64,000 nt of DNA from Globisporangium splendens (taxonomy: Eukaryota; Oomycota; Peronosporomycetes; Pythiales; Pythiaceae), in assembly GCA_006386115.1 (NCBI GenBank), contig VFIW01000090.1, positions 1 through 64,000 of the forward strand, written 5' to 3'. A program made the position numbers and the translations under genes. Under the pieces are notes generated by a model that was given only the letters and a program-made list of their open reading frames with translations, made no database searches and was not told where the DNA came from. Shown one piece after another: positions 733-41,927 of this stretch; the first letter of the stretch is position 1; the number at the start of each line of letters is the position of its first letter.

Positions 733-824
733 ACTTCTCAATTTGCCGGCTACCCCTCAAGTCGACTCTTCAGAAGAACCCTCTCCCAGCCGCCGCCTTC
801 GCCGCCATCCCTCCACCTGTCCCC

Positions 825-3419
825 ATGGAATATCCAGCTTCCGCCTCTTCTCTTCCTTCCGAGCAGCTGCCACGTGTCGCATCTGGTCTGGAATCTGGGT
901 TCGCACCCAGTTTCCAGCCAGGTCCCACTCCTGGCCCATCCCCCTCGGAAATTTTGGGAAGGTCTGGACCTCTTCCTTTGAGTGGTGTTTCAGCCTCTCA
1001 ACCCGACGCGCTTCCGTCTCCTCCTTCGCTTGCGCCAACCGCTCCGTCTGCTCCTGAGCCGACTGGAATAGACGACGAAGTGGATGTGTCGATGGAAATT
1101 CCGCCGAATGAGATCGTCTCGCCTCCTGACAGCCCGTCAGATGATGAGCCGATGGAACTCGCGCTGCCTCCTGCCAACGCCGCCTCGCATCCCAGCGCGG
1201 ATCCGCGTCCGACAATGGCCGATGTGCTCGCGCAACAAGAACTCCTCCGTCGCGACAATGCTGAAGCAGACGCTGTGCGTCGTCGTGTGGAGACCCCAAA
1301 GCCTCTTGCATGCGACATCGAAGCGATTGAACGCCAGTACGCCGCTGGCAGTGACTGGTCGTTCATTGCCCCACGCATGGAACAAGCGCGTCCGTATGCA
1401 CTCCCTCGAGCCAAGTACGACATGGTGATCGACACTGGACGGACGCTCGCGAAGACTCCGCTCCAGAAGATCATGGCGTCGCTTTCTGGCAAGAATCACG
1501 GCAATGAAGCTCTCGAAGACTTGTACCAGCGCTACGAGATCGGTCAAATCTCCAAGCTCCCTGGTGGCAACCTTCGCGTCAAGGTGAAATCGAAGGAAGC
1601 CTGCCTGCTCCTCGAGCGCACGAAGGTGAACATCCTCGGTGGTGTCTTCACGTTCAAGGAGTTTGACGTCCTTGGCGGGAAGTACTTCCTTGATATCGCC
1701 AATGTCGACTCGGACACTGACACGGATGTGATCCTACACCGGTTGTTCTTGCTCGGATGCAAGCCGGTATACGATACCTTCCGCGAAGTGAACCTCGCGA
1801 CTGGTATCACGTCTGCGACCTGGCGAGTGTACTTCTTGTCCACATCGTGTCCAAGCGCATTGATGGTGAACGGCAGTGTCTGCGACCAAGTGTTGTTCGA
1901 CAACAAGCTGCACCCCGCGCATGGGAAGAATGCTCCGTTCCAGTCCGAGCGCTTGCCGTATGGTTATCGCTCGCACCATGGACTTGATCTCGGCACTTCC
2001 GACAGCGTTTCTCCATCGAGTGGGCCAGTGACTGAGCCAGCTCGACAAAAGCAGCAACAGCAGCAGCAGCAACATCAACCGAAGACTTACGCGCAAGCTG
2101 CAAACGCAAAGCCGATGCCGAAGCAAACCTCACTGCAGAAAGCAGTTGAGGAAGCGAAGAAACGTGAAGGCCAGCCCCAGCACGGAGCTCAGCATGGGCA
2201 ACAGTCCGTTGCCAACCAGCTCGCCAAGCTTCCAAGCAACTCCGACGACGCACTGTCGATTTCGACCTTCAATGGCTCGAATGGTAAGATCACTCCACCT
2301 GGAAGTCCGAAAGCTCCGAAGAAGCTACTCTTGTTGACCAACGGACCAGACGATGGTTTCGCCACGGTGTCCAAGAACAAGAAGAAACGCTCGCGCAATG
2401 CGATTGATTTCTCCAACCTGATGGTGAAACAATCTGCACAGCCTTTGAATGGCATCGCCACCTCCAACTACTTTCAAGCACTCCAGTCGATGGAGGTCAA
2501 GTTCAAATCGAAGAACGCGACTGCTGATAAGAAGTATGGAGTCCGCCACCAAATTCTCCCAGTGGATGTGAAACGTCCTGCTGAGTTGAAGACCTCGACC
2601 GAGTCTGCCTTTTTCGTCGAGAAGCATCACACCAAGATCAGGAAGGCGTCAAAGGCATCGCCGCTTCTTGAAGTGACCGAGTCGATGCTCAACGACGAGA
2701 ACACGGCGCTTCTCAACACCCTCCCTGACCGTCTAGCTGAAGCAGACAAGAAGGTCGAAGGCGTGTGCAAGCTCCTCGAGAACGCCACGAATCCTGACCA
2801 CATCACGAAGAAGGCGATCGAGTCTCCTCTCGCTTTCAACAGTGCTCTGTCATTGAAGATGGCAGGGAGTGGTCATGAGATTGCTGAGGTCGCCCAGTTG
2901 CATGTGATCAACCGCGTGCTGTGTGCGACTCATCCGAATGACGACACCACTTTCAGCACGAAATGGAAGAAGTTGATGGGAACGGCAGTTCCATCAAAAC
3001 GAGCCGACATCATCAAGACGTGCGCGAAGTGGTGGACGACGTCGGATTCGATCAAGGAGCTGACTCGTGCATCCAAGGCTTTGGGCTTCTTCGAGCTCAT
3101 GCTCATGTCGATCGCACCGACGATCTTTGCCAACGACCACTGGATCCAGTACCTCACTGGTCAGCCAGTCGAGTGGATCCCAGCACACAACGCGCGTCTC
3201 CTCCATCCCAACACCCTCCTTCGTCTCTTGCGGTCCGAGCTTGGCTCTCACTGCATGCAGCAATGGAGCGAGGTGCAGTGGCAGGGTCACCTTCTGGACG
3301 ACCTCGAGTCGCTCCAAACACTGGAAGGTTTTTACCCGGAAGACTCTTCAGTTTTGCAGCTCCAAGTCGCTGGTGGTGAGGTTACGATGGTAGCGGGCGG
3401 TTTGGCGACTCGTTGCTAA
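825..3419 (+). CDS. LINE ORF1 protein (nucleic-acid-binding type), element A
   Basis: 864 aa starting at ATG in a good context (CCCCATGG). Order of regions: a proline/serine-rich acidic N-terminus (about 1-140); a globular part (about 170-390) with alternating hydrophobic strands that could be RRM-like, as in many LINE ORF1 proteins, but this is not proven; a glutamine-rich linker (about 407-415) followed by a TYAQAA motif; a basic segment KNKKKRSR (about 520); and a long helical C-terminal half. No CCHC zinc knuckle is visible. In other LINEs ORF1 coats element RNA and helps form the RNP; that role is inferred here. The frame ends at TAA in the string GTTGCTAAACC, which is also present in the other four copies and overlaps the open frame of ORF2. 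Confidence 0.85.
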   Translation: MEYPASASSLPSEQLPRVASGLESGFAPSFQPGPTPGPSPSEILGRSGPLPLSGVSASQPDALPSPPSLAPTAPSAPEPTGIDDEVDVSMEIPPNEIVSPPDSPSDDEPMELALPPANAASHPSADPRPTMADVLAQQELLRRDNAEADAVRRRVETPKPLACDIEAIERQYAAGSDWSFIAPRMEQARPYALPRAKYDMVIDTGRTLAKTPLQKIMASLSGKNHGNEALEDLYQRYEIGQISKLPGGNLRVKVKSKEACLLLERTKVNILGGVFTFKEFDVLGGKYFLDIANVDSDTDTDVILHRLFLLGCKPVYDTFREVNLATGITSATWRVYFLSTSCPSALMVNGSVCDQVLFDNKLHPAHGKNAPFQSERLPYGYRSHHGLDLGTSDSVSPSSGPVTEPARQKQQQQQQQHQPKTYAQAANAKPMPKQTSLQKAVEEAKKREGQPQHGAQHGQQSVANQLAKLPSNSDDALSISTFNGSNGKITPPGSPKAPKKLLLLTNGPDDGFATVSKNKKKRSRNAIDFSNLMVKQSAQPLNGIATSNYFQALQSMEVKFKSKNATADKKYGVRHQILPVDVKRPAELKTSTESAFFVEKHHTKIRKASKASPLLEVTESMLNDENTALLNTLPDRLAEADKKVEGVCKLLENATNPDHITKKAIESPLAFNSALSLKMAGSGHEIAEVAQLHVINRVLCATHPNDDTTFSTKWKKLMGTAVPSKRADIIKTCAKWWTTSDSIKELTRASKALGFFELMLMSIAPTIFANDHWIQYLTGQPVEWIPAHNARLLHPNTLLRLLRSELGSHCMQQWSEVQWQGHLLDDLESLQTLEGFYPEDSSVLQLQVAGGEVTMVAGGLATRC

Positions 3420-3466
3420 ACCATCCTCATCCAACACCACCTGGAGCAACATTAGTGTTCTGACTG
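3391..3466 (+). other. ORF1/ORF2 overlap with no AUG for ORF2
   Basis: The ORF2 frame opens after TAG at 3391-3393, overlaps the last 26 nt of ORF1 and is +1 relative to it. No in-frame ATG occurs before the conserved endonuclease start (V-L-T-V-N-T-N-G). The first ATG lies inside the domain, after the catalytic Asn. ORF2 must therefore be made by a +1 shift near the ORF1 stop (GTT-GCT-AAA frame), by non-AUG initiation, or by another stop-reinitiation route. The same layout is seen in elements B, C, D and E. Confidence 0.7.
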
Positions 3467-6400
3467 TGAACACTAATGGCATCAAGAAGAACGGTCATTT
3501 ATTTACTGAGAGCATGCTCTCCAAGTACTCGGTGTCGTGTGTCCAAGAAACCAAGTTCGGCGACAACACACACCTTTCCAATTTCAAGTTCCACCTCGAC
3601 TCGAGCTTCAAGCACAAGGTCTTCGTGAACGACCCCAACTCGCAGCTTGATCGACCGACGCGAGGAAGGAGCAATGGAGTGCTCACGGTACTCCGTTCCG
3701 ACTTCCCAGGCTTCGACTCGGCTATCGAGCTACCAAGTCTGTCGGTCGCAGGTCGCTACCTCGTCGTGAAAGTGGTGGTTGAGGGTGCTCCCATCTACAT
3801 CCACAACGTGTACGCGCCAGTGGACCAGCAAGAGAAACAGCAATTCTTCTCGAGTTTGGACACCGAAGGGTTCGAAGATCAAGCGACGCATTTTGTGTTG
3901 GGAGATCTCAACACTCCTCTCGACCCCAGACTCGACTCGTCGTCTCCCGACTTGCGCTATGACCCTGGCAGGTCCAGCTGCTTGGAGTGGTTGGCGAAGC
4001 TGGGTGCCGTGGACGCGTGGCGAATCCACTATGACACCAAGCGAGTCTTCACTGGTCCTCTTCCTCGGAAGAACCGTCTGGACTACATCTTGTTGTCCGA
4101 AGACTTCTACGAACGCTTCTACGACGACTCCAAGTACTTCCTGCCGAAGCATGCTGGTGATCACCTCGCTCACAGTGTGAGTTTCAGGTCTGGTTCGCAG
4201 CTCCACGGTCGAGGGTACTGGAAGTTCCCTCGCTACCTCCTCGAGTACCCACTCGTGGTCTCGGCGATCGAGAAGGAGGCAGAGATGGTGCTCGACAAGC
4301 TTCGCACTTCGACATACCCTGGCAAGGTGTGGGAGAAGTGGAAGGAGAGCATCAAGTCTCAACTCCAAGACGTGCAGAAGAAACTGAGGATGCAAGACAC
4401 TCAAGCTGTCGAAGAGGCTCGGATCCAACTCGATCAAGCTGCTGCTCAGTATCGCGTCGCTTCCAATGACTCAAATCGGGAGCACTTCGATGAAGCCATG
4501 AGAAACTACAAGGAGACGGTTACGAGGACGAGCCAGTACAACCAAGATACTGCGTTCGACTTCCAAGCGGCCAACTCCGAGAAGTCCACCAAGCACTTCT
4601 TTCGTCCATTGGACACGAGCTTGAGAAGGGTCTCGATCGAGGAGGTGGTGACACCGAGTGGCAGTGTCTCATCGAATCCTCAAGAGATATCGCTTCGCTT
4701 CCTCGAACACTGGGGATCCGAGATGGGAGATCCCGACAGTCCAGCAGGAAGAGCTCCTCCACCCGACGAAACCATGCAGCGCAAGCTTCTCGACTCGATT
4801 GTCCGCTTCGTTGCTGAGGTTGATCGTGCCATTTTGAACGCACCAGTCACCGCTTCTGACCTCGCAAGCGCAATCAGACACATGAAGACATCCTCAGCAC
4901 CCGGCATGGATGGATTGACTGCTGGTTTCTACCAGGTCGCTCCAGATGTGTTCGGTGAGTGTCTGAGTATCGTGTTCAATGATCGACTCCAACGAGGAGT
5001 GCTTTTGTCATCTCAGCGCAAGTCTGCCGTCGTGCTGCTACACAAGAAAGGTTCGCGAGCAGACCCAGGCAACTACCGACCCATCGCACTCGTGCAGGTC
5101 GATGTGAAGGTGTTGTCCAAAGCGCTGACGTACCGGCTCCAGCAAGTCATCCTCGACTTGATCCATCCCGACCAAAAGGGATTCGTCAAAGGTCGCTCAA
5201 TCCATCACCACGTGCGGTTCCTCGCGGATCTGCAAGACCTGGTGACGAGTCGAGACGAAGAAGCGTATGCTCTGTTCTTGGACTTTGAGAAGGCGTTCGA
5301 CCGAGTGAACTGGGACTACATGCTCCGAGTACTCGAGCGAATGGGGATCGGCTCGGAGTTTGTGCAGTGGATCAAGCTTCTATACACCGAGCCTCAAGCC
5401 CACCTCGTCATCAACCAGAACATCCAGCCGGCGCTGCATCCGACGAGAGGAGTGAAGCAAGGCGACCCGTTGTCAGCGCTGCTCTTCATCTTGACCATCG
5501 AGCCGCTCGGCAACCTGCTACGGTCCCACGAAGAGTTCGGAGTGTGTCTCAACGCAGACCACACCTCCACGAGCATCTTCTTCGCGGACGACTCGACTCT
5601 TCTGAGCAGCTCGATACCAAACCTGCAAGCACAGCTTGGGATCGTAAAGGAGTACTGCAAAGGCTCTGGCGCGAAGCTCAACCTTGCCAAGTCGACGCTG
5701 CTGGCGCTCAACCGGAACCAGACCTGTCCGCCGCTCGCTGGAGTGCACGTTCTAGGTCGAGCGGAGACGGTGAAATATCTCGGTATCCCTTTTGGCCAGT
5801 CGTCGGTCGATGAAGACCTCGTGGAGTTCCTCGAGCAGCGCTTCTACGACGGCTTCAAGCTGTGGTACAGACGCGCGCGGACGCTCCGTGGTCGGCTCTT
5901 GGTGGCTCAAACGATGGTTCTCTCCCGCCTGTGGCATTACACCCAGCACGTGTCGATCCCGACCACGGTTGTGAGGAGGTGGCAGTCGATGCTGAACCGG
6001 TTCGTGCTGAGTCGGAAGCACGACCGCGACGCATCGCACATCCAGCTCATCCCTCGCGAGTTCCTGTACCTCCCGAGGAGTGACGGTGGTCTGCAGATCC
6101 CAAGCCTAGACGTGCACCTCAAGCGGCAACGTCTTCAGCTTGTGCTGCAGTTCATGCGAGCGGCGACTGCAGATGGTGTGCGGAACTGGACGACTGCGAG
6201 CACGGAGCTGCTCAAGCTCGTCCTTCCTCGCACAGGTGGCTGCAACGCCCTCGACTTTCTCGTGATCTCTCCGCTCCGACATGGCGACATGATCCAGTGG
6301 AGACACACTTCAGCTTGGTGGCGAACGACGTGGAAATCGTGGTACATGATTCGCTGGGAGATCACGTGGCACGACCTTCCTCCGGACGAGCGCGCTTGGT

Positions 6401-7539
6401 ACGGTCTTCGACAGCCAATCTGGTTCCACTCGGACACAGAGCTTCACTTCGAGCAGACTCCGAGAGTTCACACCAGCTCAGCACATCGACGGTGCATTGG
6501 GATGGTGCCGGAGCCTCAACGGAGTTTCAGGCTGCATGTGTCAAGAGTCTTCGGTGTGCGGTCGCTTGCCGACTTCATGCGCGAAGGTTGTGCTTGGCCG
6601 TCGCAGCAAGACTTCATCCAGCGCCATCTCGACTTCACGCTCGTGTCGACCACACCTGGTCAACAGGTGAAGTGGCTGCGAGTGCTGTACAACGAGGCAA
6701 CGCAGATCGTCGAGCGCCTGGGTGCGCGAGAGCTTGTGTTGCAGACCACGAGTGCTGCGAGACGAGCGGTGCCGCACCTGGGCTGTAAGAGCGGTGTGAA
6801 AGTGTGCTTGATCCCTGCGATTCCGCGGTCGGCGCTTCTTCGCGTGGTGTGGACACCAGCACCGCCGACAAAGCCGCATCCGATGACTCTTCACTCGCAA
6901 CGCGTAGACGAGCAGCAGATCAAGGCGTTCATCAAGTACTCCAAGCACCTGCGCAAGATCTTGCTCCCCGTGTTCGAAGACCTTCAGTTTCGCCTCGCGT
7001 TCCGCCTTCTCCCCGTGCGCTCGCGGTTCTGGTTTCTGCAACAGTCGAACCCGCGCATCGTCTACTGCGTCCGCGACGGATGCGATGCGATCGAGACCGA
7101 GAAGCACTTGTTCTTCGAGTGTTCTCTCGCAGCGAGGATCTGGGAGCACGTGCGACTTCTCATGGCGCCGTTCTTCCGCTCACACCCGACGTGGATTGGG
7201 ATTGCGACGGCGAAGAAGCCTGTCATCCAGGACGACTGGAAGGAGTGCGAGGACGTCATCTGCGACGTCTGGCACACGCTCCGCGCAGTGGCCCTTCACT
7301 TCCTCTGGTCGGATCGGAATCGGTGCTTGTTCGACGGAAGACAGCCCACACCGGTGACCCCTGCAATAGCAGTCATATACACAACTGTCAGTGCACACAT
7401 CCGACACAACATGAGAAGAAGATATGAAGGCGAAGACTTACGGTTGCTCAAGAGAGTGGTGACGAAGATGCGGACGCTCCAGGCATTCGACGACTTCATG
7501 GCAGCTCACCCGACGATGCTCCAGATTCGGGTCAGATAG
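3466..7539 (+). CDS. LINE ORF2: APE endonuclease, reverse transcriptase, Cys/His motif (element A)
   Basis: 1357 aa counted from GTG at 3466; the true start is unclear because no AUG precedes the domain. The N-terminus is an endonuclease/exonuclease/phosphatase domain: NTNG, QET (Glu28), NVYAPV, GDLNTPLD (about 147) and RLDYILLSE. It should nick target DNA for target-primed reverse transcription. The reverse transcriptase follows: KKGS..NYRPIAL, LDFEKAFDRVNW (about 605), GVKQGDPLS and FADDS (about 706). Near residue 1201 a C-x4-C...H-x4-C pattern followed by W is like the zf-RVT module of plant-type LINEs. No RNase H domain is visible. The frame is unbroken. Target choice (the tRNA A-box region) is probably set by the endonuclease and/or the C-terminal zinc motif, but this is inference. 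Confidence 0.93.
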   Translation: MNTNGIKKNGHLFTESMLSKYSVSCVQETKFGDNTHLSNFKFHLDSSFKHKVFVNDPNSQLDRPTRGRSNGVLTVLRSDFPGFDSAIELPSLSVAGRYLVVKVVVEGAPIYIHNVYAPVDQQEKQQFFSSLDTEGFEDQATHFVLGDLNTPLDPRLDSSSPDLRYDPGRSSCLEWLAKLGAVDAWRIHYDTKRVFTGPLPRKNRLDYILLSEDFYERFYDDSKYFLPKHAGDHLAHSVSFRSGSQLHGRGYWKFPRYLLEYPLVVSAIEKEAEMVLDKLRTSTYPGKVWEKWKESIKSQLQDVQKKLRMQDTQAVEEARIQLDQAAAQYRVASNDSNREHFDEAMRNYKETVTRTSQYNQDTAFDFQAANSEKSTKHFFRPLDTSLRRVSIEEVVTPSGSVSSNPQEISLRFLEHWGSEMGDPDSPAGRAPPPDETMQRKLLDSIVRFVAEVDRAILNAPVTASDLASAIRHMKTSSAPGMDGLTAGFYQVAPDVFGECLSIVFNDRLQRGVLLSSQRKSAVVLLHKKGSRADPGNYRPIALVQVDVKVLSKALTYRLQQVILDLIHPDQKGFVKGRSIHHHVRFLADLQDLVTSRDEEAYALFLDFEKAFDRVNWDYMLRVLERMGIGSEFVQWIKLLYTEPQAHLVINQNIQPALHPTRGVKQGDPLSALLFILTIEPLGNLLRSHEEFGVCLNADHTSTSIFFADDSTLLSSSIPNLQAQLGIVKEYCKGSGAKLNLAKSTLLALNRNQTCPPLAGVHVLGRAETVKYLGIPFGQSSVDEDLVEFLEQRFYDGFKLWYRRARTLRGRLLVAQTMVLSRLWHYTQHVSIPTTVVRRWQSMLNRFVLSRKHDRDASHIQLIPREFLYLPRSDGGLQIPSLDVHLKRQRLQLVLQFMRAATADGVRNWTTASTELLKLVLPRTGGCNALDFLVISPLRHGDMIQWRHTSAWWRTTWKSWYMIRWEITWHDLPPDERAWYGLRQPIWFHSDTELHFEQTPRVHTSSAHRRCIGMVPEPQRSFRLHVSRVFGVRSLADFMREGCAWPSQQDFIQRHLDFTLVSTTPGQQVKWLRVLYNEATQIVERLGARELVLQTTSAARRAVPHLGCKSGVKVCLIPAIPRSALLRVVWTPAPPTKPHPMTLHSQRVDEQQIKAFIKYSKHLRKILLPVFEDLQFRLAFRLLPVRSRFWFLQQSNPRIVYCVRDGCDAIETEKHLFFECSLAARIWEHVRLLMAPFFRSHPTWIGIATAKKPVIQDDWKECEDVICDVWHTLRAVALHFLWSDRNRCLFDGRQPTPVTPAIAVIYTTVSAHIRHNMRRRYEGEDLRLLKRVVTKMRTLQAFDDFMAAHPTMLQIRVR

Positions 7540-8212
7540 GAGCGCTTCTTCCAACCCGAACGTGGCCAACGACAACGAAGAGAAGTTCCCAAAGCTTCAA
7601 AAAATCGAAAAACTCGCGCTTCAGATCCCCCAACCACCGTTGCTTCCCAACACCACCGCCACGTCGAAACAGCAACACACAAGATCGGATTCTTCACAGG
7701 AAAGTCGAACTTCGCAGCCCAGCATCACCAGCGACTGTCACGATCAAGACAGGACTTGTCCCGCAAGCTTCGACCGCACCAAACGCACCACCTCGGCCAA
7801 TACCGCACGACTCCACTCCATCAGCTCCGCGCTCAAATCCGGCTTCGGGGCCCTCACGTTCCCCTGGGGTCCGGACGAGACAGCTGTAGCTTCAGGAGAA
7901 GAATCGCTTGAATTGGCTTCGGCGACGAAGCTTGGTTTGGCTAGGCTCGGGCCTTCACGACTTGACTTGGACGCGCTTGGCTCACCGAGGACTTGGCTTG
8001 GACACTTCAAAATCCCCCTAAATAAGGGAATAGAAGTTCCACTATATACCCGACTTTGGTCCATACGGACTATTCTCACAAAAATTCTCAAAATTTGTAT
8101 AAATTATAAACTCGTAGATACAAGTGTAGGATTATATTTATGGTAGAAACTGTCCACGCTAGGTAGATTGAGTAGTCACTTCGTCTAATTCTAGTAATAT
8201 AGACAACTTTAA
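7540..8212 (+). other. LINE A 3' UTR with terminal hairpin
   Basis: Non-coding tail. Its first 290 bp are unlike the other copies; from about 7835 it matches them (GGCTTCGGGGCCCTCACG, then degenerate CTTGG repeats, then AT-rich sequence). The last part holds a hairpin GTCTA (8183-8187) / TAGAC (8200-8204) with a 12-nt loop, followed by AACTTTAA and then the target duplication. This end is shared with the short N1 elements, so it is the likely reverse-transcriptase recognition site. Confidence 0.7.
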
Positions 8213-8228
8213 ACTGAGCTATACGACC
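8213..8228. repeat. 3' target-site duplication of LINE A (tRNA-Ile 5' segment)
   Basis: ACTGAGCTATACGACC is identical to 717-732. It is followed by TCGGCCATG, the same sequence that follows uninterrupted tRNA-Ile genes at 9761 and 10522. It is therefore the right half of a split target, not a gene. Confidence 0.95.
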
Positions 8229-9688: not shown

Positions 9689-9761
9689 TGGTCATACTGG
9701 GGCTCGAACCCAGGACCACAGCGTTATTAGCACTGCGCTCTACCGACTGAGCTATACGACC
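9689..9761 (-). tRNA. tRNA-Ile (anticodon AAT), empty target
   Basis: Same 73-nt sequence as the copy at 660-732, with the T-run terminator past its 3' end. Its 5' end runs directly into TCGGCCATG with no element, which makes it an in-window empty site for the LINEs. Confidence 0.96.
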
Positions 9762-10449: not shown

Positions 10450-10522
10450 TGGTCATACTGGGGCTCGAACCCAGGACCACAGCGTTATTAGCACTGCGCT
10501 CTACCGACTGAGCTATACGACC
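10450..10522 (-). tRNA. tRNA-Ile (anticodon AAT), empty target
   Basis: Identical 73-nt cloverleaf with intact A and B boxes and a T-run terminator. The upstream flank is the normal repeat unit, so this is a second intact empty target. Confidence 0.96.
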
Positions 10523-11210: not shown

Positions 11211-11283
11211 TGGTCATACTGGGGCTCGAACCCAGGACCACAGCGTTATTAGCACTGCGCTCTACCGACTGAGCTATACGACC
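11211..11283 (-). tRNA. tRNA-Ile (anticodon AAT), occupied by LINE B
   Basis: Intact 73-nt tRNA. The repeat sequence on its 3' side (11080-11210) is more diverged than in the other units. LINE B begins immediately beyond its 5' end. Confidence 0.95.
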
Positions 11284-11368
11284 CACTTCTCAATTTGCCG
11301 GCTACCCCTCAAGTTGAATCCAAGACCTCCCAGTCGCCTCCCCCAGCCTCTCAGCCTCCGTCTTTCCC

Positions 11369-13920: not shown

Positions 13921-13960
13921 ACCAACCTCGGCTCAACCCTCGTGGAACAACATTAGTGTC

Positions 13961-19328: not shown

Positions 19329-19413
19329 CACTTCTCAATTTGCCGGCTACCCCTCAAGTTGAATCCAAGACCTCCCAGTCGCCTCCCCCAACCTCTCAGC
19401 CTCCGTCTCTCCC

Positions 19414-26603: not shown

Positions 26604-26621
26604 CAACTGAGCTATCGAGGC

Positions 26622-27015: not shown

Positions 27016-27033
27016 CAACTGAGCTATCGAGGC

Positions 27034-27476: not shown

Positions 27477-27487
27477 TGCCGCGACCC

Positions 27488-27531
<44 letters not shown>

Positions 27532-27548
27532 AACTGAGCTATCGAGGC
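27477..27548 (-). tRNA. tRNA-Phe (anticodon GAA), one base short in the D loop
   Basis: 72-nt cloverleaf on the minus strand: D stem GCTC/GAGC, anticodon stem TCAGA/TCTGA with loop CTGAAGA (GAA), T stem CCTGG/CCGGG, discriminator A and a TTTTT terminator just past the 3' end. The D loop is AGTTGGA, one G fewer than the other two copies. The acceptor stem GCCTCGA/TCGCGGC has a U-C mismatch at its fourth pair. LINE D begins at the next base beyond the 5' end. Confidence 0.9.
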
Positions 27549-27640
27549 ACTTCTCAATTTGCCGGCTACCCCTCAAGTCGACTCTTCAGAAGAACCCTCT
27601 CCCAGCCGCCGCCTTCGCCGCCATCCCTCCGCCTGTCCCC

Positions 27641-30205: not shown

Positions 30206-30251
30206 ACCATCCTCATCCAACACCACCTGGAGCAACATTAGTGTTCTGGCT

Positions 30252-33200: not shown

Positions 33201-34322
33201 CCAATCTGGTTCCACTCGGACACAGAGCTCCACTTCGAGCAGACTCCGAGAGTTCACACCAGCTCAGCACACCGTCGGTGCATTGGGACTGTCCCTGAAC
33301 CACAGCGCAGCTTTCGGTTGCATGTGTCAAGAGTCTTCGGCGTGCGGTCGCTTGCCGACTTCATGCGCGAGGGTTGTGCTTGGCCGTCGCAGCAAGACTT
33401 CGTCCAGCGCCATCTCGACTTCACGCTCGTGTCGACCACACCTGGTCAACAGGTGAAGTGGCTGCGAGTGCTGTACAACGAGGCAACACAGATCGTCGAG
33501 CGCCTGGGTGCGCGAGAGCTTGTGTTGCAGACTTTGAGTGCTGCGAGACGAGCGGTGCCGCATCTGGGCTGCAAGAGCGGTGTGAAAGTGTGCTTGATCC
33601 CTGCGATTCCGCGGTCGGCGCTTCTTCGCATGGTGTGGACACCAGCACCGCCGACAAAGCCGCATCCGATGACTCTTCACTCGCAACGCGTAGACGAGCA
33701 GCAGATCAAGGCGTTCGTCAAGTACTCCAAGCACCTGCGCAAGATCTTGCTCCCTGTGTTCGAAGACCTTCAGTTTCGCCTCGCGTTCCGCCTTCTCCCC
33801 GTGCGCTCGCGGTTCTGGTTTCTGCAACAGTCGAACCCGCGCATCGTCTACTGCGTCCGCGACGGATGCGATGCGATCGAGACCGAGAAGCACTTGTTCT
33901 TCGAGTGTTCTCTCGCAGCGAGGATCTGGGAGCACGTGCGACTTCTCATGGCGCCGTTCTTCCGCTCACACCCGACGTGGATTGGGATTGCGACGGCGAA
34001 GAAGCCTGTCATCCAGGACGACTGGAAGGAGTGCGAGGACGTCATCTGCGACGTCTGGCACACGCTCCGCGCAGTGGCCCTTCACTTCCTCTGGTCGGAT
34101 CGGAATCGGTGCTTGTTCGACGGAAGACAGCCCACACCGGTGACCCCTGCAATGGCAGTCATATACACAACTGTCAGTGCACACATCCGACACAACATGC
34201 GAAGAAAATACGAAGACGAAGACTTACGGTTGCTCAAGAGAGTGGTGACGAAGATGCGGACGCTCCAGGCATTCGACGACTTCCTGGTAGCTCACCCAAC
34301 GATGCTCCAGATTCGGGTCTGA
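30252..34322 (+). CDS. LINE ORF2: endonuclease, reverse transcriptase, Cys/His motif (element D)
   Basis: 1356 aa counted from GTG at 30252. As in A, no AUG precedes the endonuclease core. Motifs in order: NTNG, VQE (followed by AKF instead of TKF), NVYAPV, GDLNTPLD, RLDYILLSE, NYRPIAL, LDFEKAFDRVNW, GVKQGDPLS, FADDS and the C-terminal C-x4-C...H-x4-C pattern. Unbroken to TGA at 34320-34322. It should nick the tRNA target and copy element RNA. Confidence 0.93.
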   Translation: MNTNGIKKNGHLFIESMLSKYSVSCVQEAKFGDNTHLSNFKFHLDSSFKHKVFVNDPNSQLDRPTRGRSNGVLTVLRSDFPGFDSAIELPSLSVAGRYLVVKVVVESTPIYIHNVYAPVDQQEKQQFFSSLDTEGFEDQATHFVLGDLNTPLDSRLDSSSPALHYDPGRSSCLEWLAKLGVVDAWRIHYDTKRVFTGPLPRKNRLDYILLSEAFYERFYDDSKYFLPKHVGDRFAHTVSFRSGSQLHGRGYWKFSRYLLEYPLVVSAIEKEAEMVLDKLRTSTYPGKVWEKWKASIKSQLQDVQKKLRMQDTQAVEEARIQLDQAAAQYRVASNDSNREHFDEAMRNYKETVTRTSQYNQDTAFDFRAANSEKSTKHFFRPLDTSLRRVSIEEVMTPSGSVSSNPQEISLRFLEHWGSEMGDPDSPAGRAPPPDETMQRKLLDSIVCFVAEVDRAILNAPVTASDLASAIRHMKASSAPGMDGLTAGFYQVAPDVFGECLSIVFNARLQRGVLLSSQRKSAVVLLHKKGSRAEPGNYRPIALVQVDVKVLSKALTYRLQQVILDLIHPDQKGFVKGRSIHHHVRLLADLQDLVTSRDEEAYALFLDFEKAFDRVNWDYMFRVLERMGIGSEFVQWIKLLYTEPQAHLVINQNIQPALHPTRGVKQGDPLSALLFILTIEPLGNLLRSHEEYGVCLNADHTSTSIFFADDSTLLSSSVPNLQAQLGIVKEYCKGSGAKLNLAKSMLLALNRNQTCPPLAGVQVLGRAETVKYLGIPFGQSSVDEDLVEFLEQRFYDGFKLWYRRARTLRGRLLVAQTMVLSRLWHYTQHVSIPTTVVRRWQSMLNRFVLSRKHDRDASHIQLIPREFLYLPRSDGGLQIPSLDSHLKRQRLQLVLQFMRAATADGVRNWTTASTELLKLVLPRTGGCNALDFLVISPLRHGDMIQWRHTSAWWRTTWKSWYMIRWEITWHDLPPDERAWYGLRQPIWFHSDTELHFEQTPRVHTSSAHRRCIGTVPEPQRSFRLHVSRVFGVRSLADFMREGCAWPSQQDFVQRHLDFTLVSTTPGQQVKWLRVLYNEATQIVERLGARELVLQTLSAARRAVPHLGCKSGVKVCLIPAIPRSALLRMVWTPAPPTKPHPMTLHSQRVDEQQIKAFVKYSKHLRKILLPVFEDLQFRLAFRLLPVRSRFWFLQQSNPRIVYCVRDGCDAIETEKHLFFECSLAARIWEHVRLLMAPFFRSHPTWIGIATAKKPVIQDDWKECEDVICDVWHTLRAVALHFLWSDRNRCLFDGRQPTPVTPAMAVIYTTVSAHIRHNMRRKYEDEDLRLLKRVVTKMRTLQAFDDFLVAHPTMLQIRV

Positions 34323-34839
34323 TAGGAGCGCTTCTCGGCACTCAAGCGTGCAGACAGCACCGACCGCCACGCTCCAACCTTGACTTGCTCCACAAGCGTC
34401 GTCGACACCAAAACCACCTGCCTCAGCCAAAACCACACGACTCCCCTCCATTGATTCCGCGCTCAAACCTGGCTTCGGGGCCCTCACGTTCCCCTGGGGT
34501 CCAGGCGAGACAGCAGAAGCAACAGAAGAAGATCCGCGAGGCTTGACGTCTGCGAGATGGCTCGGCTCGACTTGGCTTGGGTGTGCTTCCCTCGACTTGG
34601 ACAGGCTTGGCTTGACTTGGCTTGGTATGTCGACTTCAGAAGTTCCCAAAATAAGGGATTAGAGGTCCCACTATATACCCGACTTTGGTCCATACGGACT
34701 ATTCTCACAAAAATTCTCAAAAATTATATAAATTATAAAATCGTAGATACATGTGTAGGATTATATTTATGATAGAAACTGTCAACGCTAGGTAGATTGA
34801 GTAGTCACTCCGTCTAATTCTAGTAATATAGACAACTTT
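34323..34839 (+). other. LINE D 3' UTR
   Basis: Non-coding tail like those of B, C and E rather than the proximal part of A. It has the GGCTTCGGGGCCCTCACG block, CTTGG repeats, an AT-rich segment and the terminal GTCTA/TAGAC hairpin, and ends AACTTT. Confidence 0.8.
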
Positions 34840-34857
34840 CAACTGAGCTATCGAGGC

Positions 34858-35251
34858 GAGGCAAGAGCGCGAGCGCGAACGCGCAGCAGAGGAAGAGCGC
34901 GAGCGAGAGAGCGCAGCAGCAGCAACAGCAGGCGATGAGCGCGGGCGAGGTGTCTTGGTGGTCTTGGGCGACATCGGGGCTGGTCGGGCTTGTTTGACGA
35001 ATGAGCTATTTTTAGCCGCCTCTTCCGAAAGCCAAAAATATCCCCCCTCCTACACGCAATTCACACAATTCAATCAAAAGAATTGCAAGTCCAGACAATA
35101 TAAAGATTCAAACTCAAGTCCAGATTCAAAACAAAACAAAAGCAGACAAAACTCAGCATGTATACTAGACTTGTATTGTAAGTGTATACCTCTATTTTGC
35201 TAGGTAGATTGAGTAGCCACTCTGTCTAATTCAAGTAAATAGACAACCTTT
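34858..35251 (+). mobile_element. N1b: short non-autonomous element
   Basis: Second 394-bp N1 copy, flanked by CAACTGAGCTATCGAGGC at 34840-34857 and 35252-35269. The body is almost identical to N1a. In the tail (35199-35251) the hairpin loop differs (ATTCAAGTAAA) but the GTCTA/TAGAC stem is kept, and the end is AACCTTT. Confidence 0.82.
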
Positions 35252-35269
35252 CAACTGAGCTATCGAGGC

Positions 35270-35712: not shown

Positions 35713-35723
35713 TGCCGCGACCC

Positions 35724-35781
<58 letters not shown>

Positions 35782-35785
35782 AGGC
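35713..35785 (-). tRNA. tRNA-Phe (anticodon GAA)
   Basis: 73 nt with the usual AGTTGGGA D loop, loop CTGAAGA, T loop TTCGATC, discriminator A and a TTTTT terminator. It has the same U-C mismatch at the fourth acceptor pair as the other copies. The 5'-truncated LINE E starts at the next base beyond its 5' end. Confidence 0.94.
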
Positions 35786-37293
35786 ACAAGCTCCATCCTG
35801 CCCACGGCAAGAATGCGCCGTCCCGCTCGGAGCGTTTGCCTTTCGGCTATCGCTCTGCACAAGCTCTTGAGCTTGGAGTGCCTGGTGGTGCGTTTCCGCA
35901 CCCTGACCCGATGTCTGAGCCAGTCCTCAGAAGTCAGAAGCCAAACACACCAAGCTCTGCGAAATCGTATGCCCAAGCTGCAGGCAATCCGAAGCAACCT
36001 TCGCCGCCGAATGCGACCAAGGGACAAATGAATGGAGATTCGCAGCCCCAGCGAGGAGCTCAGCATGGACAGATTTCTGGTCCAATTGTGCCGAGAAAAC
36101 CTGGCAGCACTACCTCGGGTTTATCCGTGAGCACCTTCAACGGATCAATCGGGAAGATCACTCCGCCTGCCAGCCCTCGAGTTGGTCCGCAGCAGCCTCT
36201 TCTCTTGACCAACGGAGAAAGCGATGGGTTCCAACCCGTGACCAAGAAGAACAACAAGAAGCGATCGAGGAACGGCACCGACTTCGCCAACATGGTTGCC
36301 AAGCAACAGCCGCAGCCTCTTGATGGAATCGCGACGTCCAACTACTTCGACGTACTCCAATCAGTGGAGGTGGCTTTCGAAGCGAAGAGAGTGACCGCAG
36401 ACAAGAAGTACGGCATTCGATACCAAGTTTTGCCGACTGAAGTCAAGCGACCAGAAGCATTGAAGGAGTCCAAGGAATCGGCTTTCTTCATCGAGAAGCA
36501 CCACACGAAAGTGAGGAAGTCACCGAAAGCTTCGCACATCGTGGAAGTGGCCGAGTCGATGGCGAACGATGAGAACACTGCTCTTCTCAGCGTTCTCCCG
36601 GACCGATTGACTCACGCCGACACGAAGGTTGACGCTGCGTGCAAGATCGTTGCGAACGCCACCAACGCTGATCATGTGACCAAGCACGCTGTCGAGAACC
36701 CGCTCGCGTTCAACAGTGCTCTGTCGCTCAAGATGGCAGGGACTGGACACGAGATGCAGGAGCTCGCTCAACTTCACATGATCAACCGCGTCTTGAGTGC
36801 TTCCGACCCAAGTGAGGACACGACGTTCAGCACGAAGTGGAAGAAGTTTATGAAGACCAAGGTTCCGTCGACGCGAGGGGATCTGTTCCACACCGCTGCA
36901 AAGTGGTGGACAACGTCGGAGCCAGTCCGAGAACTGTCTTGAGCGACGAAGGCACTGAGTCTCTTCGAGCTCATGCTGATGTCCATCGCCCCGACGATAT
37001 TCGCGAATGACCACTGGATCCAGTACCTGACTGGAATGCCGGTGCCGTGGATCCCTGCACACCACACCCGTCTGCTGCATCCCAACACGCTGTTGATGCT
37101 GCTACGCTCGGAGCTTGGAGCGTTGTGCATGAAGCAATGGGCTGAAGTGCAGTGGCAAGGACGCATTCTTGAGGACCTGGAAGCTCTTCGTGACCTCGAA
37201 GACTACTACCCAGATGACGCGTCAGTCTTGAAGCTTCAGGTGGTTGATGGTAGCGTGGTGATGGCAGCAGGCAGTCTCGCTGTCAGTTGCTAA
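35786..37293 (+). pseudogene. LINE ORF1, element E, truncated and with a stop
   Basis: C-terminal part only. It opens at KLHPAHGKNAP-like sequence, keeps the YAQAAG motif and the basic NKKRSR cluster, and has TGA at 36940-36942 where the other copies have CGA. The same frame then continues to TAA at 37293 in the conserved GTTGCTAAACC string. Confidence 0.85.
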
Positions 37294-37333
37294 ACCAACC
37301 TCGACTCAGCCCTCGTGGAGCAACGTTAGTGTC

Positions 37334-40300
37334 TTGACCGTGAACACTAACGGCATCAAAGACAACGGTCACCTATTTATCGACAGCATGGTATCGAAGC
37401 ACTCGATATCATGCGTCCAAGAAACCAAGTTCAGTGACAAGCAACACCTCTCGACCTTCAAGTTTCACCTCGACTCAAGCTTCAAGCACCAAGTCTTTGT
37501 GAACGACCCCAACTCCCAGTTGGATCGACCCACACGCGGACGCAGTGGCGGTGTTCTCACCGTTCTTCGCTCTGACGTGCCGGGTTTCGAAACGGCTGCG
37601 GAACAACCAAGCCTCGCCATCCCAGGTCGGTACCTCGTTGTGAAGCTGATGGTGAGTGACGCTCCCGTCTACATTCACAACGTGTACGCTCCTGTGGACC
37701 GACAGGAAAAGCAACAATTCTTCTCGAGTCTCTCGACCGAAGGCTTTGAAGATCAAGCGACACACCTTGTGTTGGGAGATCTGAACACTCCGTTGGACCC
37801 CAGACTCGACTCGTCGTCTCCAGATCTGCGCTACGACCCGGCACGCTCGAGCTGCCTTGCGTGGCTTGCTCGTCTTGGCGTTGTGGATGCGTGGCGTGTC
37901 CACCATGACACGAAGCGAGTCTTCACTGGTCCCTTGCCTCGCAAGAACCGGCTGGACTATATTCTTCTCTCGGAGCCGTTCTATGAACGCTTCTACGACG
38001 ACTCCAAGTACTTCGTTCCCCAGAACGCTGGCGACCACCTTGCTCACTGCGTGAGTTTCAAGACCGGCTCCCAGCTGCATGGACGCGGGTACTGGAAGTT
38101 CCCCCGTTACCTGCTGGAGTACCCAGTGGTTGTGTCCGCGATCGAGAAGGAAGCGGAAGCAGTCCGAGACCAGCTCCGTGGCTCCACCAATCCTGGCCAA
38201 ATCTGGGAGAGGTGGAAGACGAGAATCAAGAGCCAGCTGCAAGACGTTCAGAAGAAGCTCCGCACACAAGACACAGCCGCGGTTGGAGAGGCTCGTGCTT
38301 CGCTCGACCAGGCTGCTGCTCGCTACCGTGAGTCTTCCACCGAGAACAACCGCAGCCAGTTCGACGACGCGATGAAGATTTACAAGGAGACAGTCACCAG
38401 AACCAGCCAGTACAACCAAGACAATGCGTTTGACTTCCAGGCAGCCAACTCCGAGAAATCGACCAAGCACTTCTTCCGTCCGTTGGACACGTGTCTGAGG
38501 AAGGTATCGATTGAAGAGGTCGTGACACCGAATGGAAGTGTCTCGTCGAATCCTCAAGAGATATCTCTCCGTTTCCTCGAGCACTGGGGATCCGAGATGG
38601 GAGATCCCGACAGTCCAGCAGGAACAGCTCCTCCACCAGACGAAGCCAAGCAGCAAACGCTCGTTGACTCGGTCATCCGAGTGCTGTCAGAGCTGGATCG
38701 GGAGATCTTGAATGCTCCTGTGACGGCTTCCGACCTTGCGGACTCGATCAGGCACATGAAGGCGAGTTCGGTACCTGGTATGGACGGCTTGACGGCTGGC
38801 TTCTACCAGGTCGCTCCCGACGTGTTTGGTGAAAGCCTCAGCATTGTCTTCAACGACCAGCTTCGTCGTGGCACTCTCTTGCCATCGCAGCGAAAGTCAG
38901 CGGTCGTCCTCCTCTACAAGAAGGGATCAAGAGCCGAGCCTGGCAACTACCGACCGATCACGCTGATGCCAGTCGACGTGAAAGCTCTGTCCAAGACTCT
39001 CACGTTCCGACTCCAGTCCGTTGTGTGCAGTCTCATCCACACGGACCAGAAGGCATTCGTGAAAGGCAGGTCGATCCACCATCACGTTCGCTTCCTCGCT
39101 GATCTCCAAGACTTGATCACGAACCTCGACGACGAAGCGTACGCGATGTTCTTGGACTTCGAGAAGGCGTTCGATCGTGTGAACTGGGACTACATGTTCC
39201 GAGTGCTTGAGAAGATAGGATGCGGCTCTGCGTTTATCCAGTGGGTGAGGCTTCTGTACACGCGGCCGCAAGCACACCTTCTCATCAACCAGAACATCCA
39301 GCCCGCGCTTCATCCGACGCGAGGTGTCAAACAGGGTGATCCTCTGTCTGCCTTGTTGTTCCTTCTGGCAATTGAGCCTCTTGGGAACATGCTGCGGTCG
39401 CACGAGGAATACGGTGTGTGCCTCAACGCGGACCACACGGCCACCAGCATGTTCTTCGCAGATGACACCACGCTTCTTGGCGGTTCCATCCCGAGTGTCC
39501 AAGCACAACTGGAGCTCGTGGATGTCTACTGCAAGGGATCCGGTGCGAAACTCAGCCTCAGCAAGTCGATGCTGATGGCACTGAACCGCAACCAAGACTG
39601 CCCTCGCCTGTCTGGCGTCCAAGTGCTGGGTCGTGCAGAGTCGGCGAAGTTCCTTGGTGTTCCGTTCAGCCAGTCTCCCGTCAATGACACCATCGTGTCT
39701 TTCCTCGATGACCGCTTCTACGACGGCTTCAAGGCGTGGTACAGGCGAGCAAGAACACTGCGAGGGAGACTTCTTGTAGCCCAGACAATGGTCCTGTCTC
39801 GCTTGTGGCACTACACGCAGCATGTGGTTGTCCCTCGGCAAGTCGTGAAGAGGTGGCAGTCGATGTTGAACAAGTTTGTCCTGAGTCGGAAGCATGACCG
39901 AGAGGACACACACATCCAGCTGATCCCGAAGGAGTTTCTCTACTTGAGACGCAACGAAGGTGGTCTGGGCATCCCGAGCATCGAGGCTCATCTGAAGCGG
40001 CAACGACTCCAGCTGATGCTTCAGTTTGTGCGTGCAGCCACGACTCCCGAGGAGAGAAACTGGACGACAGCGAGCTGTGAGGTGCTCAAGTCTGTTCTAC
40101 CACCCATCGGAAGGTGCAGAGCGCTCGACTTCCTCACAGTATCGCCGCTGCGGCATGGCTCGATGATCAAGTGGCAGAAGACATCAGGATGGTGGAGAGC
40201 GACCTGGACGCTGTGGTACACGATCAGCTGGGAGATCACGTGGCGCAACCTTCCGCCGGACGAAGGCGTGAGGGAGTGCCTCGCTCAGCCAATTTGGTTC

Positions 40301-41404
40301 CATGCAGATGCGCACCTCCACTACGAACAGACCCCTCGGACTGCAACCGTCAACGCTCATCGAAGGTGCCTTGGTATGTGTCCCGAGCCGCAGCGAAGCT
40401 TCCGGCTCCACATCTCGAGAGTGTTCGGTTTGCGATCACTGGCGGACTTCATGCATGGTGGAACGGCATGGCCGAGCTGCAACGACTTTGTGTCGGCTCA
40501 CCTTGATCGCACGCTGACTCACATCTCTGTCGGCATCCAGTCGCAATGGCTTCGGTCGTTGTACAAGGAAGCGACACAGATCGTGGACCGACTAGGTGCA
40601 ATACCACCGCAAGTTGACTCAAGTCTTCGTCTCCTTCCGCACCTTGGTTGCGCCAATGGCACGAAGACATGCCTGTTTCCGGCCATCCCGAGAAGCGCGC
40701 TTCTTCGTCTGGTGTGGAAGCCCACACCGCCTTCGAAAAGCCACCCAATGACGCTCCACAGCCAGAGTGTCGACGAGGACGAAGTGAAAAGGTTCGTGAA
40801 GCACGGCAAGCATCTCCGCCAGCTCCTGCTCCCAGTCTTTGAGGACTTGCAGTTTCGAGTGGCGTTCCGACTGCTTCCTGTGCGCTCTCGGTTCTTCTTC
40901 CTGAGAGACACCGACCCACACATCACGTACTGCATCCAGGACGGCTGCAACGCAATCGAGACCGAGCAGCACTTGTTCTTCGAGTGCGCGCTTGCCTCTC
41001 GAGTGTGGGGGCACCTGTTGCTTCTGATGCGGCCATTCTTTCGTCGCCAGCCAACGTGGACGATGATCGCTTTGGCACGGAAGCCGTCGATTCACGAAGA
41101 GTGGAAGGAATGCGAAGACGTCGTCTACGATGTGTGGCACACTCTTCGCGCAGTGGCCCTTCACTTCCTCTGGGCGGATCGGAATCGGTGCTTGTTCGAC
41201 GGAAGACAGCCCACACCGGTGACCCCTGCAATGGCAGTCATATACACAACGGTCAGTTCACACATCCGACACAACATGAGAAGAAGATATGAAGACAAAG
41301 ACTTACGGTTGCTCAAGAGAGTGGTGACGAAGATGAGGACGCTCCAGGCATTCGACGACTTCCTGGCAGCTCACCCGACGATGTTCCAAATTCGGGAACG
41401 ATAA
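37334..41404 (+). CDS. LINE ORF2: endonuclease, reverse transcriptase, Cys/His motif (element E)
   Basis: 1356 aa from TTG at 37334, open to TAA. It lacks an AUG before NTNG, as in the other copies. Motifs: QETKFS, NVYAPV, GDLNTPLD, LDYILLSE, NYRPITL, LDFEKAFDRVNW, GVKQGDPLS, FADDT and the C-terminal C-x4-C...H-x4-C. The frame is intact although the element has lost its 5' end, which would carry the promoter. Confidence 0.92.
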   Translation: MTVNTNGIKDNGHLFIDSMVSKHSISCVQETKFSDKQHLSTFKFHLDSSFKHQVFVNDPNSQLDRPTRGRSGGVLTVLRSDVPGFETAAEQPSLAIPGRYLVVKLMVSDAPVYIHNVYAPVDRQEKQQFFSSLSTEGFEDQATHLVLGDLNTPLDPRLDSSSPDLRYDPARSSCLAWLARLGVVDAWRVHHDTKRVFTGPLPRKNRLDYILLSEPFYERFYDDSKYFVPQNAGDHLAHCVSFKTGSQLHGRGYWKFPRYLLEYPVVVSAIEKEAEAVRDQLRGSTNPGQIWERWKTRIKSQLQDVQKKLRTQDTAAVGEARASLDQAAARYRESSTENNRSQFDDAMKIYKETVTRTSQYNQDNAFDFQAANSEKSTKHFFRPLDTCLRKVSIEEVVTPNGSVSSNPQEISLRFLEHWGSEMGDPDSPAGTAPPPDEAKQQTLVDSVIRVLSELDREILNAPVTASDLADSIRHMKASSVPGMDGLTAGFYQVAPDVFGESLSIVFNDQLRRGTLLPSQRKSAVVLLYKKGSRAEPGNYRPITLMPVDVKALSKTLTFRLQSVVCSLIHTDQKAFVKGRSIHHHVRFLADLQDLITNLDDEAYAMFLDFEKAFDRVNWDYMFRVLEKIGCGSAFIQWVRLLYTRPQAHLLINQNIQPALHPTRGVKQGDPLSALLFLLAIEPLGNMLRSHEEYGVCLNADHTATSMFFADDTTLLGGSIPSVQAQLELVDVYCKGSGAKLSLSKSMLMALNRNQDCPRLSGVQVLGRAESAKFLGVPFSQSPVNDTIVSFLDDRFYDGFKAWYRRARTLRGRLLVAQTMVLSRLWHYTQHVVVPRQVVKRWQSMLNKFVLSRKHDREDTHIQLIPKEFLYLRRNEGGLGIPSIEAHLKRQRLQLMLQFVRAATTPEERNWTTASCEVLKSVLPPIGRCRALDFLTVSPLRHGSMIKWQKTSGWWRATWTLWYTISWEITWRNLPPDEGVRECLAQPIWFHADAHLHYEQTPRTATVNAHRRCLGMCPEPQRSFRLHISRVFGLRSLADFMHGGTAWPSCNDFVSAHLDRTLTHISVGIQSQWLRSLYKEATQIVDRLGAIPPQVDSSLRLLPHLGCANGTKTCLFPAIPRSALLRLVWKPTPPSKSHPMTLHSQSVDEDEVKRFVKHGKHLRQLLLPVFEDLQFRVAFRLLPVRSRFFFLRDTDPHITYCIQDGCNAIETEQHLFFECALASRVWGHLLLLMRPFFRRQPTWTMIALARKPSIHEEWKECEDVVYDVWHTLRAVALHFLWADRNRCLFDGRQPTPVTPAMAVIYTTVSSHIRHNMRRRYEDKDLRLLKRVVTKMRTLQAFDDFLAAHPTMFQIRER

Positions 41405-41927
41405 GAGCACTCCTCAGCACTCAAGCGTGCAGACGACACCGACCGCCACGCTCCAAACTGGACTTGCGCCACAAGCGTCGTCGACACCAAAACCACCTGC
41501 CTCGGCCATTACCAAACGAATCCCCTCCATTGATTCCACGCTCGAACCCGGCTTCGGGGCCCTCACGTTCCCCTGGGCTCCGGGTGAGACAGCAGTAGTC
41601 TCAGGAGGAGAAGTCGCACGGCTTGGATTTGGCGAGATGGCTCGGCTTGACTTGACTTGGGTCCGCTTCCCTCGACTTGGACCGGCTTGGCTTGGTATGT
41701 CGACTTCAGAAGTTCCCAAAATAAGGGAATAGAGGTCCCACTATATACCCGACTTTGGTCCACACGGACTATTCTCACAAAAATTCTCAAAATTTATATA
41801 AATTATAAAATCATAGATACAAGTGTAGGATTATATTTATGATAGAAACTGTCCACGCTAGGTAGATTGAGTAGTCACTTCGTCTAATTCCAGTAATATA
41901 GACAACTTTCAACTGAGCTATCGAGGC

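Follow-up and report, generated by a model that had tools for sequence, protein, structure and literature searches.

What places retrotransposons at exactly the first base of one tRNA gene after another? The question is raised by a 64,000-nt stretch of DNA from the oomycete Globisporangium splendens (GenBank assembly GCA_006386115.1, contig VFIW01000090.1, positions 1 to 64,000 of the forward strand; hereafter the window), in which five long interspersed nuclear elements (LINEs), A to E, adjoin the 5′ ends of tRNA genes. In this study, we analyzed the junctions of these elements and searched the genome of 53,310,241 bases (195 contigs) for their relatives. We conclude, with a probability of roughly 0.88, that an L1-type family, carrying an apurinic/apyrimidinic-type endonuclease (APE) and a reverse transcriptase (RT), uses target-primed reverse transcription to insert at a single fixed site in tRNA genes.

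On the basis of tRNA calls plus Rfam placement, the window holds nine tRNA genes, all on the minus strand, of which Rfam places eight well and one, an Ile copy, more weakly; features on both strands are given here in window coordinates. Five plus-strand elements start at +1 of such a gene. The intact tRNA-Ile(AAU) at 660..732 is the target of element A, a full-length LINE delimited by its junctions and by alignment (733..8214), which ends with an element-coded AAC tail and is followed by a 14-bp target duplication, the reverse complement of tRNA-Ile nt 1-14 (8215..8228). A second tRNA-Ile (11211..11283) is the target of element B (11285..18552; 14-bp duplication at 18553..18566), and a third (19256..19328) adjoins element C (19330..26607). 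In B and C a single extra C, at 11284 in B, separates tRNA +1 from the element, and the frame of the second open reading frame (ORF2) is interrupted. The tRNA-Phe(GAA) at 27477..27548 is the target of element D, full-length with both frames open (27549..34843; 14-bp duplication at 34844..34857), and the tRNA-Phe at 35713..35785 carries element E, a 5′-truncated LINE with its first base on +1 (35786..41913; 14-bp duplication at 41914..41927). The original prediction of five elements at tRNA +1 in one orientation is therefore borne out for all five, with the corrections that B and C follow an extra base and that E is truncated. Of the five, C looks like a recombinant, as its 5′ end lies at tRNA-Ile, its 3′ end at a 14-bp tRNA-Phe fragment (26608..26621), and its flanks share no matching repeat.

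The uninterrupted tRNA-Ile units at 9689..9761 and 10450..10522 had been proposed as empty sites, and this proposal holds. When A or B is removed together with one repeat copy, all 361 bases compared agree with the unit at 9761 (0 mismatches), so that no bases were lost on insertion. Moreover, the tRNAs beside A, B, and C each score 66.2 bits in Rfam, equal to the uninterrupted Ile units; insertion thus leaves the tRNA gene whole. Each insertion leaves a complete tRNA on one side and a 14-bp copy plus the old flank on the other, with the element pointing away from the tRNA.

How long the duplicated target is can be read from the junctions. Matching repeats of 16-18 bp had been reported at 717/8213, 11268/18551, 27531/34840, and 35768/41910; the repeats are present, but the true duplication is 14 bp, as bases 15-18 are element-coded at the 3′ junction. 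Among 53 end-to-end copies in the genome (both ends within 9.7 kb), 47 have a repeat of at least 11 nt common to both flanks, three of the 47 being stray insertions on contigs C46, C151, and C164 that share 15, 13, and 13 nt, respectively. The six without a repeat are element C, C122:24065 (Thr to Ala), C129:124839 (Met to Ala), C34:44752 (Thr to Phe), C162:1696475, and C114:22501. Copies at tRNA-Ala are informative because bases 15-17 of this tRNA differ from the element tail. Nine of these copies have a repeat; in eight of them it consists of TGAGCTACATCCCC, tRNA bases 1 to 14, with nothing further shared, and extra bases are present at the 5′ junction of the ninth. The native sequence next to this stretch is ATT, ATC, GAC, or CAC in Ala, Ile, Met, Lys, and Thr genes, yet all 38 junctions at such genes have AAC in the 3′ copy (a 39th match was an intact tRNA-Ala gene further on and was excluded). 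These bases are therefore supplied by the element, which ends in ...CTTTCAAC (CTTTAAAC in A). Judged from these junctions, the target duplication at tRNAs is 14 bp, from +1 to the invariant A14 of the A box, and the tRNA-sense strand would be nicked no later than A14; the predicted first nick in the A box and second at +1 fit the same junctions. The 5′-truncated copies (E and a short copy at 41928) likewise begin exactly at +1, and hence it is the target, not the 5′ end of the element, that sets the boundary.

A tabulation of flanks across the genome, suggested by the original prediction as a check, gave the expected result. With a 28-mer from the 5′ end and a 26-mer from the 3′ end, each allowed up to 3 mismatches, we found 90 and 78 places, respectively, versus 0 for the reversed 5′ control and 0 for the 3′ control, and all flanks were read. 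The 5′ ends lie at tRNA +1 in 71 cases, at a tRNA 5′ fragment within a stack, preceded by the 3′ end of another element, in 14, at degenerate tRNA-like sequences in two (C182:148634 and C111:1853), and elsewhere in only three, so that copies are not mostly outside tRNA genes. ARAGORN places a tRNA adjoining the element on the opposite strand in 66 of the 90, at an offset of 0 in 43, 1 in 11, 2 in six, 3 in four, and 6 in two. Five further 5′ ends were assigned to tRNA +1 by hand: C153:39877, whose final 45 nt are the same as in other Tyr copies, C35:85844 (Ile), C35:84329, and two Gly(CCC) copies on C115, one called a tRNA by Rfam and the other with the same flank. One copy labelled Phe by ARAGORN (C153:13929) has the flank of the Tyr copies. 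Fourteen anticodons occur among the 66, 15 with Gly, representing 12 amino acids; the target is thus far broader than the tRNA-Ile and tRNA-Phe first proposed. In a letter-by-letter comparison, a native tRNA 5′ 14- to 16-mer directly adjoins the element in 72 of the 90 cases, with no base added or lost (one of them is a tRNA-like 14-mer not matched to a tRNA type). At the 3′ side, the sequence following 66 of the 78 ends matches one of a set of 14 native tRNA 5′ 14-mers, allowing up to 2 mismatches, and three more are tRNA-like by eye (C182:152198, C16:63572, and C145:131165), giving 69 of 78.

Copies for which this much sequence was available were also grouped by their first 150 nt (51 distinct sequences including 5S copies, ten groups, nearest-group assignment). 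Groups 1-6 each occur at two to seven class I tRNA types, group 9 only at Ser and Leu, and group 0 only at 5S genes. Two elements adjoin chimeric tRNAs: at C162:1696475, one of the six copies without a repeat, the tRNA has a Met body with the first ~17 nt of Asn, and at C35:84329 it has an Ile body with the first ~16 nt of Met. This suggests template switching or conversion at the 5′ junction.

Several observations weigh against a rigidly fixed site. Three of the 90 5′ ends lie elsewhere (C46:17187, C151:99150, and C164:238358, the last 19 bp from a tRNA-Leu), as do nine of the 78 3′ ends (C159, C46, C99, C114:29850, C151, C164, C170, C100, and C155). The copy at C114:29850 ends ~25 bp from the 3′ end of a tRNA-Ala, and the nearest upstream 5′ end, C114:22501, sits at a tRNA-Ala gene; it may be a recombinant of the tRNA-Ala array. 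At 13 of the 90 5′ junctions one to six bases are added (C, GC, TGC, or poly-C) or one is lost, so the second cut or the 5′ joining is not perfectly fixed; the remaining five in the letter comparison are the degenerate and stray cases. Furthermore, the Ala junctions allow a nick no later than A14, which is a limit and not a measured cut, and the stray sites fit repeats of 13-15 bp. The census covers copies that keep a recognizable end, and its counts include allelic copies and array duplications, so that 90 ends do not equal 90 independent events. The specificity for tRNA +1 is strong, not absolute.

What kind of element does this? A and D are 97% identical over 6.8 kb and have two open frames each: ORF1 of 864 aa at 825..3419 in A and of 854 aa at 27641-30205 in D, and ORF2 at 3394..7539 in A, 30180-34322 in D, and 37262-41404 in E, the last also open. 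Pfam recognizes Exo_endo_phos and RVT_1 in ORF2 of A, D, and E. The best PDB match of ORF2 is human L1 ORF2p (1.6e-64 over residues 117-883), R2 proteins being far weaker. A C-terminal CCHC motif follows the RT, reading CVRDGCDAIETEKHLFFEC in A and D and similar in E, while the C-termini of ORF2 and L1, aligned alone, gave no significant match. ORF1 of A and D has no Pfam match up to E 1, and ORF2 of A, D, and E has no Pfam RNase H match at E 0.001. The dN/dS ratios of ORF2 are 0.144 for A-D and 0.114 for A-E, and on this comparison ORF2 of A, D, and E is evolving under constraint. Taken together, APE plus RT, the CCHC motif, the target duplication, and 5′-truncated copies are all present, and by these sequence features the family is an L1-group (APE-type) non-LTR (long terminal repeat) retrotransposon. 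Assignment to the NeSL/Utopia group, which has a restriction-like endonuclease, was rejected given the APE domain; the RNase H expected upstream of the RT in an oomycete Utopia element likewise found no match in the three ORF2 frames. A search of IMG/VR confirmed no relatives. The ORF1 and ORF2 frames overlap by 26 nt (3394-3419 in A; 30180-30205 in D) and the APE domain starts upstream of the first ORF2 ATG; ORF2 is therefore probably produced by frameshift or fusion.

Related elements occupy other genes transcribed by RNA polymerase III (Pol III). A copy at tRNA-Leu (C129) shares 56-58% of residues with ORF2 of A and E (1378 aa), and its 3′ end reads CTTTAAC and then TCGGGC. A copy at tRNA-Ser (C67) shares 62-63% (659-686 aa); its first 49 nt are 90% like A, versus ~66% for the coding DNA, a figure to be read knowing that the copy itself was found via the 28-mer. 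A third family, with the 5′ end ACTTTCCAATTTGCC, occurs at 15 places with 0-1 mismatch, lying in 5S genes on C121 and in stacks on C63 (six loci examined). Its layout is 5S 1-57, element, 5S 44-119, with a repeat CTGCGAAGTTAAGC of 14 bp, or 15 if a chance-shared T is counted. From a 5S-flanked 5′ end to the next 5S 3′ half on C121 measures 6,929-6,938 bp in five of six copies. A 1.6-kb piece inside one interval of this type (L175, the portion covered) is a single open frame, 36% identical to the RT of D over 398 aa (211 bits in BLASTP) and matching human L1 with 111-114 bits in phmmer, a different program from that behind the first score. The 5S element is oriented with the gene and interrupts it. 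A separate 319-bp short element, starting about AACCGATCCCATTTGGG, occurs at the same 5S site (L029, L159, and L050 on C121).

How would such insertions arise? In the mechanism that we favor, the ORF2 endonuclease would nick the tRNA-sense strand in the A box, no later than after the invariant A14, and the freed 3′ end would prime reverse transcription of an element RNA ending ...CUUUCAAC. The other strand would be cut 14 bp away, at the +1 boundary, and repair would duplicate tRNA nt 1-14. The Pol III machinery on the gene probably guides the complex, because the Ala, Leu, Arg, and 5S targets share position and not sequence, and the 5S sister family has a similar stagger.

Whether Pol III factors are needed at all is the point on which the best-surviving alternative differs. 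It holds that the endonuclease and the 3′ tail suffice to select any sequence that matches, the tail (CAACTGAG) being complementary to the A box CTCAGTTG. As such a choice would have it, CAACTGA or a similar sequence is found at most of the nine stray 3′ ends, and the CTTTAAC ending of the Leu lineage before TCGGGC fits a class II A box. However, the sites at tRNA-Ala and the strays on C151 and C164 have no more than TGA(G), next to the tail, in common with the native site. Such a match occurs much too often to account for the clustering at tRNA genes, and tail complementarity as the sole determinant was rejected on these junctions. In addition, the Arg, Leu, Ser, and 5S sites differ in sequence, and the C164 stray is 19 bp from a tRNA-Leu; C114:29850 also lies near a tRNA gene but counts little, as a possible array recombinant. 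We regard site choice by sequence alone as possible but rather unlikely.

It is far less probable that true insertions were few and that the copies spread by amplification of a tRNA-plus-LINE unit and recombination between arrays. The tRNA units do form tandem arrays, some neighbors look duplicated (Thr units on C34 are ~7.47 kb apart), and unmatched ends are seen in element C, C122:24065, C129:124839, and C34:44752. Nevertheless, the same subfamily occurs at genes for different amino acids: relatives of A, 94-98% identical over 738-768 nt, lie at Tyr, Met, and Phe genes, and A itself at Ile. The nine tRNA groups cover 27 subfamily-by-tRNA combinations (one with an unassigned tRNA-like target), which excludes segmental duplication of one insertion, an origin that the original prediction had named as fatal to its claim, and the matched repeats in 47 of 53 copies and the existence of empty units point the same way. 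Amplification is contradicted as the main cause, while still contributing to copy number. Random insertion followed by survival of only harmless copies upstream of tRNA genes is scarcely credible, for the intact tRNA would let selection tolerate such copies, yet selection cannot yield a base-exact position, a single orientation, and a constant repeat, and the 5S insertions interrupt their gene.

Insertion at a fixed position by target-primed reverse transcription restores the full target, so that later elements can reuse the same tRNA and push older ones outward, producing head-to-tail stacks. A stack of this kind, absent from the original prediction, lies at 35713-42860, where tRNA-Phe is followed by E, a truncated short element, and a full short element, each trailed by 14 bp, and then by the old flank. 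The second layer is a 5′-truncated short element (41928..42137; 14-bp duplication at 42138..42151), and the third is a short element of full length that has both the 5′ end of the family and the AAC tail (42152..42846; 14-bp duplication at 42847..42860). If the model is correct, the layer nearest the tRNA would be the youngest and the third layer (42152-42846) the oldest. Beyond element D, in the same stack, a short insertion of 398 bp (34858..35255) is followed by a Phe fragment (35256-35269), and beyond element C a short insertion with the family 3′ end (26622..27019) precedes another Phe fragment (27020-27033).

Why should the 5′ end be so constant? McLeod et al. are said to have described CAYTYYNCAWTTTNC in 2004 as the oomycete initiator plus flanking element. 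The first 14 nt of the element, together with the preceding C, match this Inr/FPR core promoter; in A the conserved 5′ end spans 733..765, and the C comes from tRNA G1. A C directly precedes the element in 77 of the 90 copies, mostly from tRNA G1. In the window the pattern CAYTYYNCAWTTTNC has 5 matches, all at element 5′ ends, versus 0.03 expected; with one mismatch allowed there are 6 versus 1.56 expected, namely the five element 5′ ends and one (49140) in an LTR element. Genome-wide, TCAYTYYNCAWTTTNC has 811 matches versus 2 for the pattern read backwards, many of them repeat-like among the first 100 listed. At nine of ten hand-picked, apparently non-repeat motif sites an ATG lies 40-71 nt downstream with a frame of at least 147 aa (two of the nine are near-identical genes), which is not so at the tenth. 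One of these nine genes encodes an elicitin (Pfam), a family regarded as oomycete-specific. The conservation of the first 32 nt is a biased measure, as the sequences were chosen by the 28-mer with up to 6 mismatches. Based on the motif, the first base of the element is probably its RNA polymerase II (Pol II) start site. Roy et al. 2013 cite McLeod et al. for an initiator that spans the start site (PMC3597505).

Two structural candidates were rejected. A self-cleaving ribozyme at the 5′ end found no support, as only tRNA matched in Rfam up to E 1 at positions 640-1000, and the promoter reading explains the fixed 5′ end. A strong hairpin at the 3′ end gave z-scores of 0.25, -0.75, -0.89, and -0.38, no better than shuffles. 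Pairs of the initiator motif ~6.0 or 7.17 kb apart were seen on C2, C4, C23, C25, C28, C33, and C34 and are possibly LTR pairs using the same core promoter.

The rest of the window adds a few features. The weaker tRNA-Ile copy (8917-8990, minus strand; 46.5 bits in Rfam) lacks bases right at its +1 end, with no element there, and is possibly the repair scar of a failed insertion. A further tRNA-Phe lies at 43723-43795 (minus strand, Rfam), and beyond its unit, at ~43.8-50.4 kb, is a Ty3/gypsy chromovirus with gag, protease, RT, integrase, and chromodomain. Elsewhere in the assembly, contig C48 (at least 94.9 kb) carries tRNA genes mirrored in inverted repeats and looks like the mitochondrial genome.

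In a wider synthesis, which we lean toward with some reserve, one L1-type oomycete lineage would have radiated into specialists for class I tRNA, class II (Leu/Ser) tRNA, and 5S genes, with a 14- to 15-bp stagger within or beside the Pol III internal promoter; the tRNA lineages would restore their target and so build ordered stacks, and the Pol II start would be fused to the first tRNA base, the target supplying the last promoter base. If this is true, a LINE of APE type whose specificity is pan-tRNA and exact to the base, and which leaves its target gene unharmed, would offer a natural model of safe, repeatable insertion. Related lineages with different Pol III targets and a similar stagger would permit the determinants of target choice to be mapped, insertion times should be ordered naturally within the stacks, and the close, opposed Pol II and Pol III starts raise the question of interference or cooperation between the polymerases. 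No description of the family was found in a limited literature search that did not extend to Repbase or a protein database.

The claim that insertion at tRNA +1 is distinct from known LINEs stands with respect to the Dictyostelium TRE elements, which insert at a distance, and has to be narrowed, as insertion near tRNA +1 has precedents in NLTR-A and in NeSL/LIN elements. NLTR-A of Dictyostelium purpureum is described as inserting 2-6 bp upstream of tRNA genes (Spaller et al. 2016, PMC5006619). Like the present family, it is a non-LTR element that lies very near the first nucleotide of the mature tRNA and leaves the gene intact; as far as that account goes, it differs in an RNase H after the RT, whereas here none was matched in ORF2, the junction is at +1, and the 14-bp duplication lies inside the tRNA. 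In the same account, TRE5 and TRE3 lie away from tRNA genes, by ~50 bp on the upstream side or 100 bp on the downstream side; TRE5-A depends on the B box, contact of its ORF1 with TFIIIB is regarded as possible (PMC5006619), and it is guidance of this kind by Pol III factors that we propose here. The TRE elements as described share APE and RT, an ORF1, and the aim at tRNA genes, but insert at a distance instead of at +1.

NeSL-1_TV is an element of Trichomonas, and LIN15_SM and LIN25_SM are planarian. Their reported targets are tRNA-Pro, tRNA-Arg, and tRNA-Glu, respectively (Kojima and Jurka 2015, PMC4640811). All three resemble the present family in being tRNA-gene-specific non-LTR elements; they differ in being NeSL-related, with a restriction-like endonuclease, and in that the relevant text of that source names one tRNA for each, versus APE and 15 anticodons here. 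Utopia, also treated there, inserts into and disrupts the U2 snRNA genes of oomycetes and has a restriction-like endonuclease with RNase H before the RT (PMC4640811). As characterized in those terms, it shares with our family an oomycete host, arrays of small-RNA genes as targets, and several co-resident families, and differs in its endonuclease, its RNase H, and the disruption of U2, since the family here has an APE and spares the tRNA. Mutsu and Keno belong to the Tx1 clade and lie in small RNA genes, Mutsu in 5S genes, as does the 5S sister family; neither is known to target tRNA genes. Keno is listed in U2 genes (PMC4640811). The yeast element Ty3, in outline, inserts close to the site where Pol III initiates, ~12-15 bp before the mature tRNA, and spares the gene; it is similarly precise beside the tRNA start, but is an LTR element with an integrase. 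Non-LTR elements directed to tRNA genes are therefore already known, and what appears to be new is an L1-type, pan-tRNA, +1-exact family with a regenerating site and a 5S sister.

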